Below, piece by piece: positions 2,045 to 23,932 of a stretch of 35,640 bases of DNA; position 1 is the first letter of the stretch; each line of letters begins with the position of its first letter. The DNA is from an uncultured Clostridia bacterium (lineage in GTDB: Bacteria; Bacillota; Clostridia; Lachnospirales; Lachnospiraceae). The DNA lies in assembly GCA_946184675.1 (NCBI GenBank), contig CAMHFW010000004.1:1-35640 (forward strand), in the 5' to 3' direction. Under the pieces are notes generated by a model that was not told the origin of the DNA, made no database searches, and was given only the letters and a program-made list of their open reading frames with translations. A program made the position numbers and the translations under genes.

Positions 2045-2701
2045 TTATATCCTCCGAAAGGCACAGTCTGTCTTCGGGCAGACTGCGCATTCTTTTTCAT
2101 GGTCAGGCTGCATCTCTTTCGTCAGTCCGATCAGGGCTGTCACTGATTTGGACGGCATCATAAGCAGGCTGTCCGTCAGGGTCAGGCCGATCTTTTTCGG
2201 TGCGTCCAGAATCCGAAGCAGATCTTTTTGCAGGTCCAGGGGCAGGTCACCGTAGCCTGGTGAAAAGCGCGGTTTCAGATAGAGTCCTTCCTCTGCTGCC
2301 TGCCTGCGCAGCCGCGCGCAGATCTGATCACAGCAGGACTCGATCATCTCCGCGCAGAGTGCCTGATAGATCACAGCATCCGACATCCGCTGCGCGCTGG
2401 CCCGCCGGATCAGCAGATCCGGGCCCGGGCCAAGTGTTGCCGCTAACAGATATACTTCCCCGCAGCCCTGCAGATTCTTTCGCAGGTCTTTGCTGGCAAT
2501 CTGCATATCTGCTATCAAAAGGCAGGGAAAATGATTCTCCCCCTGTCTGACTGGCAACCGCATAAGCAGATGTCTTGGATCCGCCGCCTCCCGCAGTTTC
2601 TCCTCACAGGCTGCAATCTTCTCCTGCACCTGCGCATCCGGCCGTGCGCCGCCTTTGTATCCCAGATAGCGCCAGACCTGATCCTGCCTGATCGGGATCA
2701 T
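2045..2701 (-). CDS. Stand-alone methionine synthase reactivation (AdoMet-binding) protein
   Basis: A 218-residue protein matching the vitamin B12-dependent methionine synthase activation domain, which binds AdoMet and re-methylates oxidised cobalamin in MetH. In E. coli this module is the C-terminus of MetH; here it is a separate gene. Seen in the sequence: the AdoMet-binding signature RFSPGYGDLPL (about residues 144-154), the downstream SLLMMPSKSVTALIG segment, and a C-terminal cysteine cluster CAVCPKTDC that is common in the stand-alone forms. Its ATG overlaps the metF stop as ATGA, and it ends five bases before metH, so the three genes form one transcript. Separate activation proteins next to metH are known from Clostridia and Thermotoga. 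Function is assigned from family motifs and context. Confidence 0.88.
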   Translation of the reverse strand: MIPIRQDQVWRYLGYKGGARPDAQVQEKIAACEEKLREAADPRHLLMRLPVRQGENHFPCLLIADMQIASKDLRKNLQGCGEVYLLAATLGPGPDLLIRRASAQRMSDAVIYQALCAEMIESCCDQICARLRRQAAEEGLYLKPRFSPGYGDLPLDLQKDLLRILDAPKKIGLTLTDSLLMMPSKSVTALIGLTKEMQPDHEKECAVCPKTDCAFRRI

Positions 2702-3561
2702 CGCACGATCTCCGAAAGGGCATTCAGGATTCCCTCTGCCACGTCTGGTTTATTCATGGTGTAGACATGAATATATTTGCAGTCATTGGCGATCAGATCG
2801 ATGATCTGTTCTGCCGCATAGATGATGCCGGCCTGCTTCATAGAAGCCGGATCATCCCCGAACCTGTCCACAATGGCACGGAAGCGGTTAGGAACCGTCG
2901 TCCCGGAAAGAGCGACCGATCTCGATACCTGTTTGGGATTGGTGATCGGCATGATGCCGGCCAGAACCGGAACCGTCACGCCTCTTTCTCTTAAGCGGTA
3001 AAGATAGTTGTAATATACGGAATTGTCAAAAAACATCTGTGTCGTCAGGAACTGGCATCCTGCCTCGACCTTCTCTTTTACATGCAAGATATCTTCGTCT
3101 TTGTGAGCACACTCCACATGGCCGTCCGGATAGCAGGCGCCGCCGATGCAGATCTCCGGGTCCGCCTCGCGGATCTCGCGGATCAGCTCCGCCGCATACT
3201 GGTAATCATGGACCGGTGATCCTCCCTCGGGGATATCCCCGCGCAGGGCCATGATGTTGTCAAAGCCCATTTCCCGGTATTTCCCGATCATTGTGTGTAC
3301 ATGCTCTCTGGTGCTGGAAATACAGGTCAGATGCGGCAGCACGGTCGTCCCGTACTTGTCATGAATGTTTTTGGCGATATTCAGCGTATACTCAGATGTC
3401 CCACCGCCTGCTCCATAGGTGACAGACATAAATGCGGGGTGAAGCGCGGCGATCTTCTCTGTTGCCTCTGCAACAGAATCATAATTGCTGCTTTTCTTCG
3501 GCGGGAATACCTCAAAGGAAAGTGTCGGCTTCCCCTGGCTTAGTATCTCCGTAATCTTCAT
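2698..3561 (-). CDS. metF: 5,10-methylenetetrahydrofolate reductase
   Basis: Reduces 5,10-methylene-THF to 5-methyl-THF, the methyl donor used by the adjacent MetH. At 287 residues it is close to the usual bacterial MetF length. Family motifs are SFEVFPPKK near the N-terminus, SVTYGAGGG, HLTCIS, NIMALRGDIP, and PVLAGIMPITNPKQV in the FAD-binding barrel. The ATG at 3561 is preceded by CAGGAGGAG at good spacing. It is the first gene of the metF-reactivase-metH operon and overlaps the next gene by four bases. I saw no S-box or other riboswitch in its leader. The Clostridial form may use ferredoxin through a partner such as MetV, but no such partner gene is adjacent here. Confidence 0.95.
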   Translation of the reverse strand: MKITEILSQGKPTLSFEVFPPKKSSNYDSVAEATEKIAALHPAFMSVTYGAGGGTSEYTLNIAKNIHDKYGTTVLPHLTCISSTREHVHTMIGKYREMGFDNIMALRGDIPEGGSPVHDYQYAAELIREIREADPEICIGGACYPDGHVECAHKDEDILHVKEKVEAGCQFLTTQMFFDNSVYYNYLYRLRERGVTVPVLAGIMPITNPKQVSRSVALSGTTVPNRFRAIVDRFGDDPASMKQAGIIYAAEQIIDLIANDCKYIHVYTMNKPDVAEGILNALSEIVR

Positions 3562-3670: not shown

Positions 3671-3764
3671 GAAAATTACGTCGTTTTTTTTTAATTGAGT
3701 TTAAATTCTGTTCAGATTATCTTGCATGTAAGTTTGCTGGATTACTTGCCGGCTGCGATGGAAT

Positions 3765-4111
3765 GACATGAAAATCCAGAAAAGTGGGAAGTGTATAATT
3801 TCCCGGTCATTATGCTGCTTTTATATACATTATTACAGTCGTCTCCCCGAAATGCAGATTATAACCAGAAATCCCCAAAACCGTTGTCTGGATTAATATT
3901 CATCTTGCAGAGTCTGTCTGAAATAGCATTCAGAAGATGCACAATATAAGAATAAATTAGCAAAATATACATCGGCCTTTTCAAGATATGTATAATTAGC
4001 CTGAAAGAATGAAGTCTTTGTTGATAAAGGCTGATAAAGAAATAAAGAACCACCTGTCCGGTGCAGTACCTAACAGGTGGTTCTTCTAGTTGTAGAATTT
4101 TTTTACACTTC
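3765..4111 (+). repeat. Decayed relative of the inverted-repeat (MITE-like) element at 23719-23917
   Basis: This gene-free stretch resembles the minus strand of the element at 23.7 kb. Shared pieces occur in the same order: GACATGA, GGGAAGTGTATAATT, a second GTATAATTA, TTTGTTGATAAAG, AGAACCACC with a hairpin, GGTGGTTCTT, and a terminal GAATTTTTTTACAC like the other element's GAACTTTTTTACAG end. The left terminal repeat is not recognisable, and about 190 extra bases separate the two GTATAATT pieces. It is therefore either a diverged or rearranged copy or the remnant of a longer parent insertion element. The rest of 3562-4137 holds the metF promoter and no convincing gene. Confidence 0.5.
4045..4085 (-). 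terminator. Hairpin terminator downstream of the TPM gene
   Basis: A perfect 13-bp inverted repeat (arms 4045-4057 and 4073-4085, 15-base loop) follows the TPM gene. On the minus strand it is followed by a T-rich tail, and on the plus strand a run of seven T lies about ten bases further on. It is also the hairpin of the repeat remnant, so an insertion-element terminator has probably been reused by the host gene. Confidence 0.65.
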
Positions 4112-4137
4112 CTGTTTATTTGTCTGTCCCGGCAAAT

Positions 4138-5577
4138 TCAGAACTTGCCGCTGCCGCCGGAGAAGCCGTGTGAGTTGACGCTCGTTCCGCCGCCTCCGCC
4201 GCCATGGCCGCCGGTCTTGTTCTGGCTGCTGCTCACCCGCACGCGGTTGACCGTTGTGTTCACATAGTGATCCTGCTTGGATCTCATATACATGCCGCTC
4301 TCGTGGCTGATATAGTTCACAGCAGTCCGTTTGATGCCGGTATTTTTCATGGTTCTGCGCAGGCTGCCAACGCGGCCTTTGCCAGTTATAAAACCAATAA
4401 GCAGAGACAGCAGCGAGCTTCCGCCTATCATGCCTGCCCAGTTGACTGTGCGCTCCATGGGCGTTCCGTCTGCCGCTTCTTTGAGAATCTTCTCGCCAAA
4501 ATTCAGGTAAGCGGAGAATCCGCCGTACCAGTCATTGTTTCTGAAAGACGACACGAAACGGTCTGTCAGCTGTCCCTGTGCATAATCTGTGTATGCAAAG
4601 AGGGCATCGGATCCGTAAATCTTGAGGCAGTAGTCGCGCTCTGCCATGCTAAGGGCCAGAATCACGCCGTTTTGCTCACTGCCAAGCCCCAGCTGATTGT
4701 CCAGGTACAGTTTCTCTGTCCAGAGCTCGATACTGGAGCTGCCTCCGTAGCTGCGGTAATCATCCACAGTCAGCACATAGACTCCTGTGCCGTACCGGTC
4801 TGCAAGTTCGCCAGCCTTGGACTCCAGCGTCTGCCTCTCCGCGTCGCTCATCAGACCTGCCCCGTCCTTGACATAGGTTCCGTCCATCTGATCCCAGACC
4901 AGATCACTGGATGCAACCTGATCCAGAGGAGGAAGCCCGTCCTCCGCCAATGACAGGACACTCTCTGCTGCAGTCTCCGTCTCAGCAGCCGTCTCCGCAG
5001 CTGCTTCTGTTTCTGAAAGACTTCCTGCCGTCCCTGCCGCGGCAGAGCTTTCTCCATTTACAGAAGCTACTACACATTCTATAGCATGGAAGAAAGCATC
5101 ATTGTCCGACTGCAGGTCTCCGCTGAAAGCCTCCTCATTCAGATACCGGCCGACTCCCGTGTACATATCGCTTACGATCGTCCGCAGGCTGTCCTTATTC
5201 TTCCCGCCGAATACGATATCATAGTCCTGATACTGCAGACCGTCTCCGTCTTCCGTTACATAGATCATCAGAAGAATGCCGTCTCCGGTTGACTTATATC
5301 CATAACCATACTGGGTATAGAAAATCTTTGCGTAATCGTCTATCCCCTTCCCTTCCAGATCATTCACCACATCAACATGAATATCGATCTGCTTTTCCTC
5401 TGAAAGGTCGCTCAGCTGCCGGCCCATGGTCTCACAACGGCTTTTATCAAGCTGGTCTGTGGAATCATAGAGCTGTCCGTATACGGAATAAGCCATAGCC
5501 GGCACGGCCGGAAGCAGGGTAAGGAGAAGGACAAGCATGAGCGCTGCTGCTGCAAATACTTTATTATTTCTGCGCAT
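4138..5577 (-). CDS. Exported tandem TPM-domain membrane protein with Gly-rich tail
   Basis: A 479-residue protein with an N-terminal signal sequence (hydrophobic run then AVPAMA). Two TPM-like domains follow, at roughly residues 35-165 (DVVNDLEGKGIDDYAKIFY) and 235-370 (YVKDGAGLMSDAERQTLESKAGELADRYGTGVYVLTVDD). They are joined by an Ala/Glu/Thr-rich low-complexity linker. A transmembrane helix lies near residues 380-400, followed by a basic cytoplasmic stretch and the Gly/Ser tail GGHGGGGGG...GFSGGSGKF seen in YgcG-type proteins. TPM domains are linked to membrane-protein quality control and photosystem repair in other organisms; the role here is unknown. It is the last gene of a three-gene operon with a zinc-ribbon membrane protein and a Sel1 protein. 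The start at 5577 has GGAGGAG upstream. Confidence 0.8.
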   Translation of the reverse strand: MRRNNKVFAAAALMLVLLLTLLPAVPAMAYSVYGQLYDSTDQLDKSRCETMGRQLSDLSEEKQIDIHVDVVNDLEGKGIDDYAKIFYTQYGYGYKSTGDGILLMIYVTEDGDGLQYQDYDIVFGGKNKDSLRTIVSDMYTGVGRYLNEEAFSGDLQSDNDAFFHAIECVVASVNGESSAAAGTAGSLSETEAAAETAAETETAAESVLSLAEDGLPPLDQVASSDLVWDQMDGTYVKDGAGLMSDAERQTLESKAGELADRYGTGVYVLTVDDYRSYGGSSSIELWTEKLYLDNQLGLGSEQNGVILALSMAERDYCLKIYGSDALFAYTDYAQGQLTDRFVSSFRNNDWYGGFSAYLNFGEKILKEAADGTPMERTVNWAGMIGGSSLLSLLIGFITGKGRVGSLRRTMKNTGIKRTAVNYISHESGMYMRSKQDHYVNTTVNRVRVSSSQNKTGGHGGGGGGTSVNSHGFSGGSGKF

Positions 5578-12549: not shown

Positions 12550-14172
12550 TTAAAACTGCATGTATACAAAATCCGCCGGATCGTAACCCGGACCGTATAT
12601 TCCCCAGAATGCGATCATCAGTACAGTAATCGCGATCACCGCAAAACGAACCGCAAAGCTTCTGCGTTCCAGAAGTTCTCCCGGAGTATCGATCTGATTC
12701 TTTTCTTCCATAATACTGATAACAAACATGATCAGCATTCCGATTGCCAGAATCAGGAAATCGGCCTTCCCCAGCCCCAGGCCGGCGATCTCTGTTTTTC
12801 CCAGAGACAGCCGCTGATCGACCAGAGTTCTTCTCATCATATCCATGGCTCCGTAAAAACCCGGCGCGATATCAAAATAGTATCCCACCAGAACCAGGAT
12901 AAAGGTCCGGATAATCCGAAAGACCCTCCATCCGAAAGATTCCGTCCTGATCCGCAGAGCCGTGCACATCTTGTCAAATACCGGCTTTAACAGGATTGAA
13001 AACATGATAATGCCGCCATTCCAGAGACCAAAAGCTATATATTTACTGTTAGCCCCGTGCCAGAGTCCAACTACCAGGAAAACAATCACGGAAGAAATAC
13101 TGGTCGGCAATACCCTGGCGATATGAGCGCCGGCTGCTGTTTTCCCGAACCCAGACTGCTTCATCTTCTTGCTCCATCCCAGGAAAAGTTTGGAAATTGC
13201 GATCGGATTAAAGATATAATTCTTCATCCAGGCGCCCAGGGTGATATGCCATCTGCGCCAGTAATCATTGATCGACGTGGCAAAATAAGGTCTTCGGAAG
13301 TTCTGTACCATATCTATGCCCAGAATCTGGGCAATGCCGCGGCTGATGTCGATGCCGGCCGAAAAATCGGCATAAAGCTGCAGGGCGTAAAGCAGACCGG
13401 CAGCCAGGATCGTGGTTCCTGTATACTGGGTATAGTCTGCTGTTACCGTATTGATTGCGATCACCGCTCTGTCCGCGATAACAAGTTTCTTAAAATAACC
13501 CCAGAGAATCAGCTCCAGGCCCAGCTTAAAGCGGATAAATTCCGGCTTGTGCTCAGCTGTCAGCTGTGCTGCCAGCTGGCCGAAACTGCTGATCGGTCCC
13601 TGCACGATCTGTGGGAAGAATGATATAAAAAGAGCAAACTTCAGGAGATTTCTCTCCGCCTTTACTGCGCCGCGGGACACATCAATCAGATACCCCGCCG
13701 CCTGGAAAGTATAAAAGGAAATTCCAAGGGGCAGGAAAAGCTTCAGCATGGGAAGAGGACCGCCGTCAGCCGTGTGGCCCAGGATCTGGTTGATCCCTCC
13801 TGCCAGAAAATTGCTGTACTTAAGAAAGACCAGAATGCCGAAATTGGCGATCAGAGCAAGAGCCAGTATGGTCTTCTCTTTCTTTTTCACGCCGGCCTTA
13901 TAAGCCTTCTTCTCCTCCCTGCTCCAGCTTTTGCCTTCTGCTTTGATCTTCTCCTTTGACCGGAGCTTAAGGGATTCAATCCTTATAGCTGCCAGATAGA
14001 TGGTCACGGTGGTAAACAGGATGAAAACTGCAAACTTATAGCCTGCATACAGGTAAAAAACGTAGTCAGCAGCCAGCAGAATGAGCCACTGGTATTTTTT
14101 TACCGGAAACAGGTAATAGACCGCAATCACGACCGCCGTAAACAAGAAGAATGTCAAAGTAGTAAATGCCAT
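12550..14172 (-). CDS. MBOAT family membrane O-acyltransferase (DltB/AlgI-like)
   Basis: A 540-residue polytopic protein with about ten or more membrane segments. It carries MBOAT hallmarks: PLGISFYTFQAAGYLIDVSRG (149-168), FFPQIVQGPI (185-194), the re-entrant-loop sequence FATSINDYWRRWHITLGAWMKNYIFNPI (297-324), and the catalytic-histidine segment VVGLWHGANSKYIAFGLWNG with His372. A charged insertion (about 65-100) between early helices is notable. The family moves acyl groups from cytosolic carriers to extracellular acceptors. With a carrier protein and an AMP ligase upstream and a DltD-like protein downstream, it most likely plays the DltB role of passing the carrier-bound group across the membrane. 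It starts 11 bases after the decarboxylase stop. Acceptor (teichoic acid, glycan or lipid) is unknown. Confidence 0.9.
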   Translation of the reverse strand: MAFTTLTFFLFTAVVIAVYYLFPVKKYQWLILLAADYVFYLYAGYKFAVFILFTTVTIYLAAIRIESLKLRSKEKIKAEGKSWSREEKKAYKAGVKKKEKTILALALIANFGILVFLKYSNFLAGGINQILGHTADGGPLPMLKLFLPLGISFYTFQAAGYLIDVSRGAVKAERNLLKFALFISFFPQIVQGPISSFGQLAAQLTAEHKPEFIRFKLGLELILWGYFKKLVIADRAVIAINTVTADYTQYTGTTILAAGLLYALQLYADFSAGIDISRGIAQILGIDMVQNFRRPYFATSINDYWRRWHITLGAWMKNYIFNPIAISKLFLGWSKKMKQSGFGKTAAGAHIARVLPTSISSVIVFLVVGLWHGANSKYIAFGLWNGGIIMFSILLKPVFDKMCTALRIRTESFGWRVFRIIRTFILVLVGYYFDIAPGFYGAMDMMRRTLVDQRLSLGKTEIAGLGLGKADFLILAIGMLIMFVISIMEEKNQIDTPGELLERRSFAVRFAVIAITVLMIAFWGIYGPGYDPADFVYMQF

Positions 14173-14183
14173 CGCCCGTAACC

Positions 14184-15428
14184 TCAGTTCTTACAATTCC
14201 AAAGATAAGTTTCTGTTCTCTCCCGCACCTTCACAAGTCTGCCGTCGGCGTACAAAAGCCAGACAGAAGGCAGGTCTCTGCTCAAGAAAGCTGCCATACC
14301 TTCGCTGACTGAATAGGCGCCGGTCTCATGGAAAATGAGAATATCATCCTCCTGCAGTCCGGGAAGGTAAGCCCCGCGCGCCAGCACATCCATTGTGGTG
14401 CAGAGGCTGCCGCAGAGGGTATACTGACCGGCTGCCTTTTCCTCTCCCTCCGCAGCAGGAGCGGAAAGGACTTCCAGAGCACCTTTCTCATCCCTGCGCA
14501 GGTGTGTCAGTCCGGGAATCTGCATCCCGGCCAGCTGCCCGTCATATTTCATCTGGTGCAGGCCGCCGTCCACAACCGCATAACCTACGCCCATATTATG
14601 TTTCACATCCACAACCCGGGTCAGATAAAATCCGCAGGGAGCCGCAAAAAAGCGTCCCATCTCTACTGTCAGATGTCTTTCGGCAGCAGCTCCGAACGTG
14701 CGGATTCTGTCTGCCAGCTGCAGCAGACGTGTGCGCTCCGCCTTCTCCGGATCTTCATCGAAATAATCCACAGCCAGTCCGGTACCGTATTCAATCTGAG
14801 CCGGCTCATAGCCGCATTCTTCTTTTAGGCGGGCCAGAGCCTCTTCAAAAGCATCCAGCTCCGCGGCAATCTTGGCCGCCTTGCGCTTCTGGGTCCCGGT
14901 GAAATAATGAATTCCGACCATATTGACGTGCGGATACTCTCCCCGCCTTTTCAAAATGTCCTTGAGCACGCTCTCATCCATGCCGAACTGACTGCCGCCG
15001 GTCAGGCGCAGCAGAACATCCACCGTTTTCCCATGGCTGCCGGCACAAGCTTCAATGCCTTCCAGATGACGGATGCTCTCTGCTGTCAGCACGCCGCACC
15101 CGTAATCAATCGCATCCTCAATATCCTCCGGCTGCTTATTGACTCCCGAAAAAATAATCTTTTCCGGAGCCACGCCAAGCTTTCTGCAGATCCTGAGCTC
15201 ACCGGGGCTGCAGACCTCTACCCTGCTGAATACATCCGGCAGGAAAGAGAGCAGAAAAGGGTTGGCCTTAATAGAAAAACAGATATCCACATCCGGACCG
15301 AACGCTTCCTTCACAAGAGCCGCGCGTTCCGCAAACAGTCTCTCTGAAAACAGATAGGCAGGCGTCCCGGTCTGCTCTGCCAGGGCCGCCAGTTTCTTTT
15401 CATCTGCAAACATGCCGGAATCTCCCAT
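14184..15428 (-). CDS. Fold-type III PLP-dependent amino-acid decarboxylase (LysA/BtrK-like)
   Basis: A 414-residue enzyme of the alanine-racemase-like barrel plus C-terminal beta domain. Seen: PLP lysine in CFSIKANP (Lys54), CSPGELRIC (73-81), GIHYFTGTQ (172-180), EYGTGLAVD (213-221), the phosphate-binding EMGRFF (256-261), and C-terminal LCGSLCTTMDVLARGAY with the catalytic cysteine type Cys343 and Asp347; GAYSVSEG (370-377) is the other conserved end motif. LysA decarboxylates diaminopimelate; BtrK of butirosin biosynthesis decarboxylates a carrier-bound glutamyl group. This gene overlaps the carrier-protein stop by one base (TAATG), so translation is coupled. A BtrK-like action on a carrier-tethered substrate is therefore attractive, but the substrate is inferred. 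A lone lysA for lysine synthesis would not explain the surrounding genes. Confidence 0.85.
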   Translation of the reverse strand: MGDSGMFADEKKLAALAEQTGTPAYLFSERLFAERAALVKEAFGPDVDICFSIKANPFLLSFLPDVFSRVEVCSPGELRICRKLGVAPEKIIFSGVNKQPEDIEDAIDYGCGVLTAESIRHLEGIEACAGSHGKTVDVLLRLTGGSQFGMDESVLKDILKRRGEYPHVNMVGIHYFTGTQKRKAAKIAAELDAFEEALARLKEECGYEPAQIEYGTGLAVDYFDEDPEKAERTRLLQLADRIRTFGAAAERHLTVEMGRFFAAPCGFYLTRVVDVKHNMGVGYAVVDGGLHQMKYDGQLAGMQIPGLTHLRRDEKGALEVLSAPAAEGEEKAAGQYTLCGSLCTTMDVLARGAYLPGLQEDDILIFHETGAYSVSEGMAAFLSRDLPSVWLLYADGRLVKVRERTETYLWNCKN

Positions 15429-15655
15429 TATTCATCCTGCAGTCTGGTAACAAGAGCCAGAATTGCCTCGGCGCTGTTAAAGTTCTCCGGCACCAGGTCA
15501 ACCGGCTGGATCTCAATATCATACTCTTCATTGAGTGCGCCAACCAGTGAAATAATATCAAAAGAATCCAGAATACCGTCCTTTACCAGGAACTTTTCTG
15601 TCTCAAAATCCACATCCGGTCTGATCTCTTCCAGGATTGCCATTAATTCTTCCAT
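15428..15655 (-). CDS. Acyl/peptidyl carrier protein (DltC-like)
   Basis: A 75-residue acidic four-helix carrier protein with the phosphopantetheine site DGILDSFDIISL; Ser31 is the attachment residue. Size and the LDSFD motif match DltC and related PP-binding proteins. It carries the amino acid activated by the upstream ligase as a thioester. The order ligase, carrier, decarboxylase puts it between the two enzymes expected to act on its cargo, and the one-base overlap with the decarboxylase start fits a shared pathway. RBS AGGAGG lies seven bases upstream of the ATG. No dedicated phosphopantetheinyl transferase is visible in the window. Confidence 0.92.
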   Translation of the reverse strand: MEELMAILEEIRPDVDFETEKFLVKDGILDSFDIISLVGALNEEYDIEIQPVDLVPENFNSAEAILALVTRLQDE

Positions 15656-15705
15656 GATGTAACCTCCTAAAATAAAAACAATATTGTTAATGACTGACTT
15701 TTAAA

Positions 15706-17214
15706 CTATGAAAACATCTCACGCAGGCTGCGCATGTCTGTCTTGCCATTGGGCAGCTTTGGCAGCACATCCAGCTTTTTGATCTTGCGGGGTACCATAA
15801 ATGCAGGCATCTGTGCCCGGAACTGCAGGGCGATTTCCTTTGCCGTCGCCTGTCCGCTGTAGAAAAGATAGAGAAGGGACTTTTCGGCGTCATAGAGTGC
15901 GCAGCACTCCTCCACGTCTTTTACCTGCAGGGCCGCAATCTCAATCTCATCCAGCTCAATCCTGTGCCCCAGGTGCTTGATCTGCCGGTCCATCCTGCCC
16001 AGGAACTCCAGAAGTCCATCCTCACGGTACTTTCCCAGATCTCCTGTCCGGTAGATCAGATCACGATAAGCCGTATTGAGCGGATTCTGCACGAAGGAAG
16101 CCGCGCTTCGCTCCGGATCCTTATAATATCCCAGCGCCAGTACCGGCCCGCCCACACAGATCTCGCCCGGCTGTCCCGGTGCAGGTTCTTTGCCCTGTTC
16201 ATCCAGCAAAATAATCTTGTAATGGGGATACGGCCGGCCGATCGGAAGTCTGGTATCTTCCTCTGCCTTTTCTTTCACCTCATACCAAGTGCAGGAAGCC
16301 GTCGCCTCCGTAGGTCCGTACTGATTGATAAAGCGGGTCTCCGGCAGATGGTCCTGCCAGGTCCTGAGAGCTTTATTGGAAATAACCGCACCGGAAAAGA
16401 TCACGCGCCGCAGCTTCTGAGGCACCTCGCAGGCGAAAGCTCCGAGTCTGGCCGCAATCTCCAGCCCCGCTGTGCTCCAGCAGAGGGTTGTCACGCCTTT
16501 TTCATTAATCGTGCGGAAAAGGCGGTCGGGCATGGCAAATTCATTTTTCGGGATGATCACCGAGGAGGCGCCTGTGTAAAGAGGCACATAAATATCACGG
16601 ACTGCCGCAATATAGTCCAGCGGCGCCTGATTGCCCAGCACATCGGTCTCATCCAGTCCCAGCACGCTCTGCACAGCATCGATATAACACATCAGGGAAT
16701 AGTGAGATGTGATCACGCCCTTGGGTTTTCCGGTAGAACCGGAAGTAAAGATTACATACAAAGGAGCATTATCTGTCATTCTCTCTGCAGGCCCGGGATC
16801 ATAACTCTCCGGATCACCCTGCTCCAGAATCTCCTCCAGAACAAACATCTTTCCGGCAAATCCAAGTTCCTGCGCTTTCTCCAGGAACATACGGCTGACG
16901 ATCATATACGGCGCGTCAATCACCTCCAGAATCTGACGCAGCCTTCCAGCCGGCATCTCCGCATCCGCAGGCGCATAAAAACAACCTGCTCTGACTACAC
17001 CCAGAAAACAGGCTGGTGTATACACCGATCTGGCTCCCATAACCACAACAGGACTGCCCGGCACTGCTCCCTGCCCCTGCAGGAAAGCGCCAACGATCCT
17101 GGAAATCCGGTCCGCTTCTTCAAAGGTCAGCGACCGTTCTGTATCCATATAAGCTGTCTTATCTTTATACTGCTGCACCGCCCGGTCCAGCCAGTTCAAA
17201 ACGATTCGATCCAT
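15706..17214 (-). CDS. DltA-like AMP-forming amino-acid:carrier-protein ligase
   Basis: A 502-residue adenylate-forming enzyme. Core motifs: FTSGSTGKPKG (156-166), NQYGPTEAT (297-305), YRTGDLGKY (388-396), GRMDRQIKHLGHRIELDEIE (406-425) and PNGKTD with catalytic Lys491. Length and organisation match DltA, the D-alanine:DltC ligase. The pocket differs: the segment APLDYIAAVRDIY aligns without gaps to the DltA APFSFDLSVMDLY region, placing Ile202 where DltA has the Asp that binds the substrate amino group. IFSGAV puts Ser274 where DltA has the Cys that selects D-alanine. The substrate is therefore probably not D-alanine bound in the usual way. First gene of the dlt-like operon; GGGAG precedes the ATG. 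The comparison with DltA is from memory, without an alignment program. Confidence 0.88.
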   Translation of the reverse strand: MDRIVLNWLDRAVQQYKDKTAYMDTERSLTFEEADRISRIVGAFLQGQGAVPGSPVVVMGARSVYTPACFLGVVRAGCFYAPADAEMPAGRLRQILEVIDAPYMIVSRMFLEKAQELGFAGKMFVLEEILEQGDPESYDPGPAERMTDNAPLYVIFTSGSTGKPKGVITSHYSLMCYIDAVQSVLGLDETDVLGNQAPLDYIAAVRDIYVPLYTGASSVIIPKNEFAMPDRLFRTINEKGVTTLCWSTAGLEIAARLGAFACEVPQKLRRVIFSGAVISNKALRTWQDHLPETRFINQYGPTEATASCTWYEVKEKAEEDTRLPIGRPYPHYKIILLDEQGKEPAPGQPGEICVGGPVLALGYYKDPERSAASFVQNPLNTAYRDLIYRTGDLGKYREDGLLEFLGRMDRQIKHLGHRIELDEIEIAALQVKDVEECCALYDAEKSLLYLFYSGQATAKEIALQFRAQMPAFMVPRKIKKLDVLPKLPNGKTDMRSLREMFS

Positions 17215-23663: not shown

Positions 23664-23718
23664 AGTTCCTCTCTCCTTTCAGGAGTATTTACAGGCGTAG
23701 TTTCGCCGAATGCTTAAC

Positions 23719-23917
23719 GAGGCTGTAAAAAAGTTCCTGAATAGCAAGACCACCAGATCGGCTAAACGCCGATCTGGTGGTTCTTTGTACCTCTTCTTGC
23801 TTTATCAACAAAAACTATATTTTTCCACGTTAATTATACACTTCCCGCGTATCATGACAGTCAAGTCCTTTTGTGTGTGTAAATTCATGACATGAAAAGG
23901 GACTTTTTTACAGCCTC
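23719..23917. mobile_element. MITE-like element with terminal inverted repeats
   Basis: The 19-base ends GAGGCTGTAAAAAAGTTCC (23719-23737) and its inverted counterpart (23899-23917) match at 18 of 19 positions and bound 199 bases without a credible gene. Inside are a 14-bp hairpin near the left end and, near the right end, minus-strand TTGACT and GTATAATTA promoter-like pieces. This looks like an insertion element reduced to its two ends; the GAGGCTGTAAAAAAGT-type terminus suggests a DDE-transposase IS parent such as the IS1182 group (inference). No clear target duplication was seen. Confidence 0.75.
23749..23781. terminator. Hairpin inside the MITE, probable bidirectional terminator
   Basis: A perfect 14-bp stem (23749-23762 with 23768-23781) and five-base loop TAAAC, followed by TTCTTTG on the plus strand. 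It lies between the converging nucleotidase and ABC ATPase genes and probably ends transcription from both sides. Confidence 0.65.
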
Positions 23918-23932
23918 TTTGGGAGTATGGCT

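Follow-up and report, generated by a model that had tools for sequence, protein, structure and literature searches.

Between two minus-strand genes of the window (the whole stretch of 35,640 nucleotides that was analysed), one for a TPM-domain protein and the other metF, lies a degenerate repeat element whose recognisable parts are listed in Table 1, together with its sibling near 23.7 kb. It ends 25 bp from the stop codon of the TPM-domain gene (4138), and on its other side faces the metF start (3561). The sibling is located between two convergent genes. The original prediction, that the hairpins of both copies lie just past the 3′ ends of host genes, thus stands for the TPM-domain gene and for the convergent 3′ ends at 23.7 kb, with the qualification that the other neighbour of the 3.7-kb copy is a gene start. 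Elsewhere in the window, on the minus strand at 12550-17214, translations of an MBOAT acyltransferase-like and an AMP-ligase-like protein flank that of a PLP-dependent decarboxylase-like protein, a cluster resembling a D-alanylation (dlt-like) operon.

Table 1. Coordinates, in the window, of the element near 3.7 kb, its parts, its neighbours and its sibling
Feature	Position	Strand	Basis
Degenerate element copy, probably a MITE	3786..4113	+	BLASTN E 5.4e-56 over 328 bp; shuffled control
Left terminal region, decayed, in which the AGGCTGTAAAAAAG repeat seen in other copies can no longer be recognised	3760..3785	+	alignments
Left block GGGAAGTGTATAATT, containing the first TGTATAATT repeat (3792-3800)	3786..3800	+	sequence, alignment
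Second TGTATAATT, repeating 3792-3800 in direct orientation; the deletion in the 23.7-kb copy has one of its ends here	3989..3997	+	alignments
Block TTTGTTGATAAAG, 5′ of the hairpin, the same in 4/4 clear copies	4017..4029	+	alignment
Right-end hairpin; outer stem of 13 perfect pairs, then a 2x2 internal mismatch and a short inner stem	4045..4085	+	
Decayed right terminal repeat AATTTTTTTACACTTCC with T-run end; GGAACTTTTTTACAGCC in less decayed copies	4097..4113	+	alignment with other copies
TPM-domain gene (PF04536), 3′ end facing the hairpin side of the element	4138..5577	-	
metF, for methylenetetrahydrofolate reductase (PF02219); 225 bp separate its start from the left end of the element	2698..3561	-	
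Sibling copy; its terminal inverted repeats (23716-23738/23898-23920) are 23 bp long and 91% complementary	23716..23920	-	

With the intact copy on another contig (G000:C2:45689-46061) as BLASTN query, the 3.7-kb element is matched over 328 bp at 76% identity. The blocks earlier reported as shared in the same order by the two window copies are all present where they had been placed, and it is the accompanying description, little overall identity, that needs amendment. The identity seen at first was low because the partner used, the 23.7-kb copy, is without ~198 bp between the two TGTATAATT repeats, as is apparent both from alignments of the copies and from pairwise alignment. Its single TGTATAATT fuses the left repeat of the fuller copy with the right one, its block GGGAAGTGTATAATT being the product of that fusion, and it has ~33 bp additional near its left end. 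Even so, the two window copies align with a local score of 92 (shuffles 23.6 +/- 3.5, maximum 37), and when the comparison is confined to sequence 5′ of the hairpin, the score is still 54 against 22.4 +/- 3.7 for shuffled sequence (maximum 41, n=500). Similarity outside the hairpin is accordingly well above that of shuffled sequence, and the proposal of a common origin is strongly supported by these scores and by the BLASTN match.

BLAST and covariance searches, on which the copy count is based, give four clear dispersed copies in the genome (G000): the two in the window and one on each of contigs C1 and C2. As a whole-genome query, the 23.7-kb element retrieves the C1 and C2 copies plus that at 3.7 kb; with the C2 copy as query, the C1 copy is 86% identical and the 23.7-kb copy is matched piecewise. 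Copy lengths are ~205-373 bp, no transposase ORF is present inside any copy, and inverted AGAGGCTGTAAAAAAGTCCC-type repeats are found at both ends of the less decayed copies, including those on C1 and C2. In the 3.7-kb copy the recognisable left terminal repeat has been lost. A search with the C2 copy found the element absent from five congeners. There is probably, though not certainly, a fifth and strongly decayed copy at G000:C125:3766-3882 (L124:3766-3882), to judge from its sequence. This candidate scores 38 bits with the covariance model described below (R1), its left part reaches a score of 46 in alignment with the 3.7-kb copy, where the shuffle value is 20.7 (maximum 39 of 300), and though it is without either terminal repeat it retains the hairpin GGACCGCC...GGCGGTCC. 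At two pairs of the basal stem of this hairpin both partners have changed, from A-U to G-C, and a trypsin/PDZ protease gene has its 3′ end close by.

The inverted end repeats, GAGGCTGTAAAAAAGTCCC, match the terminal repeats of IS1182-family elements from the same bacterial family, in which GGGGCTGT(G/A)AAAAAA repeats bound elements of that family ~1.8 kb apart. A 70-bp match in G365, a genome from this same bacterial family, is the right end of a repeated element with a transposase of IS1182 kind (DDE_Tnp_1_6, E 3.7e-30, over the cut-off; NF033551, E 2.7e-70, under that model's curated cut-off, the protein being partial). The covariance-model search that had been suggested for the two window copies was run with R1, a model of the right ends of the four G000 copies only, on 397 genomes of the bacterial family. 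Its own copies score 129-140 bits (the 3.7-kb copy 129), and the best foreign hits, at 58 bits for two loci in G341 and at 49 and 48 bits for loci in G365, all correspond to IS1182 right ends, with an internal deletion in one of these top-scoring elements. Among the 57 hits compared outside G000, 13 follow a same-strand DDE_Tnp_1_6 domain at a distance of exactly 66-69 bp, further ones adjoin transposase remnants, and some of the weaker hits resemble ordinary hairpins. Pairwise, the right end of the C2 copy scores 53-61 against four IS1182 loci (G341, G365, G285), where shuffle means are ~22 and the maximum 34, while the interior of that copy is at shuffle level against the same loci. This points to ends and hairpin from the IS clade and an interior of other origin. 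With the IS1182 loci L088, L091 and L093, right-end resemblance is no better than that of shuffles, which limits the link to one clade of the family; there too a hairpin directly precedes the right repeat, its arms being of unrelated sequence. Searches with PF13751 and with proteins found no IS1182 transposase in G000, the assembly of which is 87% complete in 209 contigs, with repeats being often lost.

We consequently take the 3.7-kb feature, with a probability of roughly 0.87, to be an old, decaying MITE of IS1182 type and its hairpin to be the right-end hairpin of that IS clade. The elements are short, carry no transposase gene, have terminal inverted repeats and are dispersed in copies absent in relatives, and their terminal sequence is common to IS1182 elements. 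With the IS1182-family insertion sequences (NF033551, DDE_Tnp_1_6; G341:C1, G365:C1) they share the terminal repeat GGGGCTGTAAAAAA(A)... and, immediately preceding the right terminal repeat, the hairpin AAGAAYCRCCAG...CTGGYGRTTCTT; they differ in being without transposase, in a length of ~365 bp versus ~1.8 kb and in an interior absent from the IS compared. Short size, lack of transposase, terminal inverted repeats and several intergenic copies are as in bacterial MITEs generally, from which they differ by retention of the IS right-end hairpin and by low copy number (4-5). A puzzling repeat would so be explained by a known mobile-element family, and a covariance model for the right end of one IS1182 clade is a gain from the work. 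In the mechanism we envisage, an IS1182-family transposase would have moved the MITE by acting on its terminal inverted repeats, and an IS1182-type right end, with a strong hairpin and after it the T-rich terminal repeat, would have become joined to an interior of ~230 bp that has no relation to the IS elements examined. The hairpin of the parental IS, located directly after the transposase stop codon, most likely ends the transposase transcript. Once inserted just past the TPM-domain gene, it could, as a plausible side effect, stop transcription of that gene on the minus strand ahead of the metF promoter region.

Several observations touch on related elements. Short elements composed in the same order, of a terminal repeat, a hairpin and a second terminal repeat, are present in genomes G350, G263 and G098, and at L053:1499-1586, L097 ~1525-1620 and L104 ~1535-1625, in three other genera, there are only these three parts; the last-named elements, which are very short, have the look of minimal MITEs from this IS1182 clade. 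At L029:513-1570 (G365:C1) an IS1182 copy has an internally deleted transposase and intact-looking ends, and is a possible IS-to-MITE intermediate. A 33-bp, 91% match to the interior, with no recognised ends or hairpin, is present in another genus (L028, G249:C25:44009-44041), its score versus the C2 copy being 65 (shuffled 27, maximum 50).

The hairpin itself is predicted to fold at -25 kcal/mol on the plus strand and at -27.8 on the minus. Its arms, which differ in sequence between copies, were at first described as perfectly paired; this is so for the outer 13 bp, above which the internal mismatch intervenes, with 16 of 18 model pairs forming in the 3.7-kb copy. That structure rather than sequence has been kept finds weak support among the genome's own copies, where 92.9% of cells pair in the four and double-sided change at three pairs is reached by 46 of 500 shuffles. 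Support is strong across right ends of the IS1182 clade: in 22 rows, 93.2% of cells pair and double changes are present at 17 of the 18 pairs, a level that none of 500 shuffles reaches, in an alignment that is fitted to the model, includes three reverse-strand readings and leans towards structure. Controls in which that alignment was slid have 24-48% paired. In the 3.7-kb copy, stem drift is nearly equal to that elsewhere, with identity of 75-77% for the stem versus 64-72% for the rest.

Use of the 3.7-kb hairpin as a host-gene terminator is plausible from its position and predicted folding. It lies 53 bp past the stop codon of the TPM-domain gene, and has its lower folding energy, and a U-rich though interrupted tail (UAUUUCUUUAU), on the strand of that gene. 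It is a further step, compatible with the MITE origin and in our estimate possible but rather doubtful, that host selection keeps the relic for ending TPM-domain gene transcription and separating it from metF. Loss of one or two pairs where neutral drift at 24% divergence would be expected to cost 5-6 (P 0.02-0.04), in a stem that has drifted almost like the rest, argues for such recruitment, as does retention of the hairpin in the probable fifth copy. At 15% divergence, however, the excess of retained pairs is not significant (P 0.10-0.23), the pairing could date from the element's active period, the copies may come from different parental variants, and a terminator consensus scan that called the 23.7-kb hairpin missed the one at 3.7 kb. 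Nor does position show recruitment, since a hairpin preference like that reported for IS1272 would be enough to bring copies to the ends of genes. Two further ways of accounting for the hairpin fare much worse. A dispersed structured non-coding RNA gene, with TGTATAATT as its own promoter and the hairpin as its terminator, would fit the strong 3′ hairpin and a promoter-like CTGTCA-16-TATAAT at 23860-23833 on the minus strand (10 of 12 matches), and is nevertheless very improbable: the window has no Rfam match at gathering score, the hairpin of the intact C2 copy gives only a sub-threshold Rfam hit, the 23.7-kb copy is without most of the interior, and the ends are accounted for by the terminal inverted repeats together with the similarity to IS1182 right ends. 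Unrelated terminators might come to be alike by chance, GC-rich stem-loops being frequent past genes; the BLASTN match (E 5e-56, 328 bp) and alignment scores that, outside the hairpin, greatly exceed those of shuffles refute this.

Returning to the IS1182-type MITE, its location past gene ends has a precedent within the same IS family. In S. aureus, the IS1272-based TnSha1 reportedly inserts into hairpins, deleting part of them, and RNA-seq is said to confirm five of seven sequenced insertion sites as terminators (PMC4923244). Insertion into hairpins or terminators fits the location of the MITE, which may likewise have inserted at a terminator, with the differences that IS1272/TnSha1 is staphylococcal and encodes its own transposase. 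An insertion preference of IS1272 type would explain more simply why the copies sit past gene ends. The copy on C2 and the stop codon of a tetrapyrrole-methylase gene overlap; that on C1 starts ~25 bp past a stop. Flanks of autonomous relatives (n=14, 10 nt) are A-rich on the left (61% A) and T-rich on the right (60% T), as would be expected beside a terminator stem, and matching of the flanks of the 14 IS copies as inverted repeats was not significant (p 0.09). Neither empty site nor target duplication was found, the former having been sought via metF in congeners, in which the neighbourhood is not conserved. It is rather doubtful, and put forward here tentatively, that members of the IS1182 clade, MITEs included, arrive at the 3′ ends of genes with a ready-made hairpin in their right end, which the host keeps as a terminator when the mobile parts have decayed, pairing being preserved through drift. 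If true, the clade would be a recurrent source of host terminators. Should decayed copies end host transcripts, the conversion of transposon ends into gene terminators could be tested on them, with the reported IS1272 insertion preference as the route.

Exact patterns were also sought more widely. That of TTTGTTGATAAAG...GAACCACC had 13 matches in ~85,000 species genomes and four in viral contigs, and the two inspected (L039 and L044) looked like chance. Interior patterns had one and zero matches in viral contigs, and the element had no match in plasmid and phage collections. The exact terminal-repeat pattern is present in three of 299 genomes, G000 included, with no visible element in the other two. 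Separately, at L055 ~1850-2050 (G022:C30), by a contig end and near a lone GGGACTTTTTTACAGCCCC repeat, a unit TTATAGTCACGTAATTTGTTCAGGTACTAAAAT recurs with differing spacers and looks, from its arrangement, like a CRISPR array.
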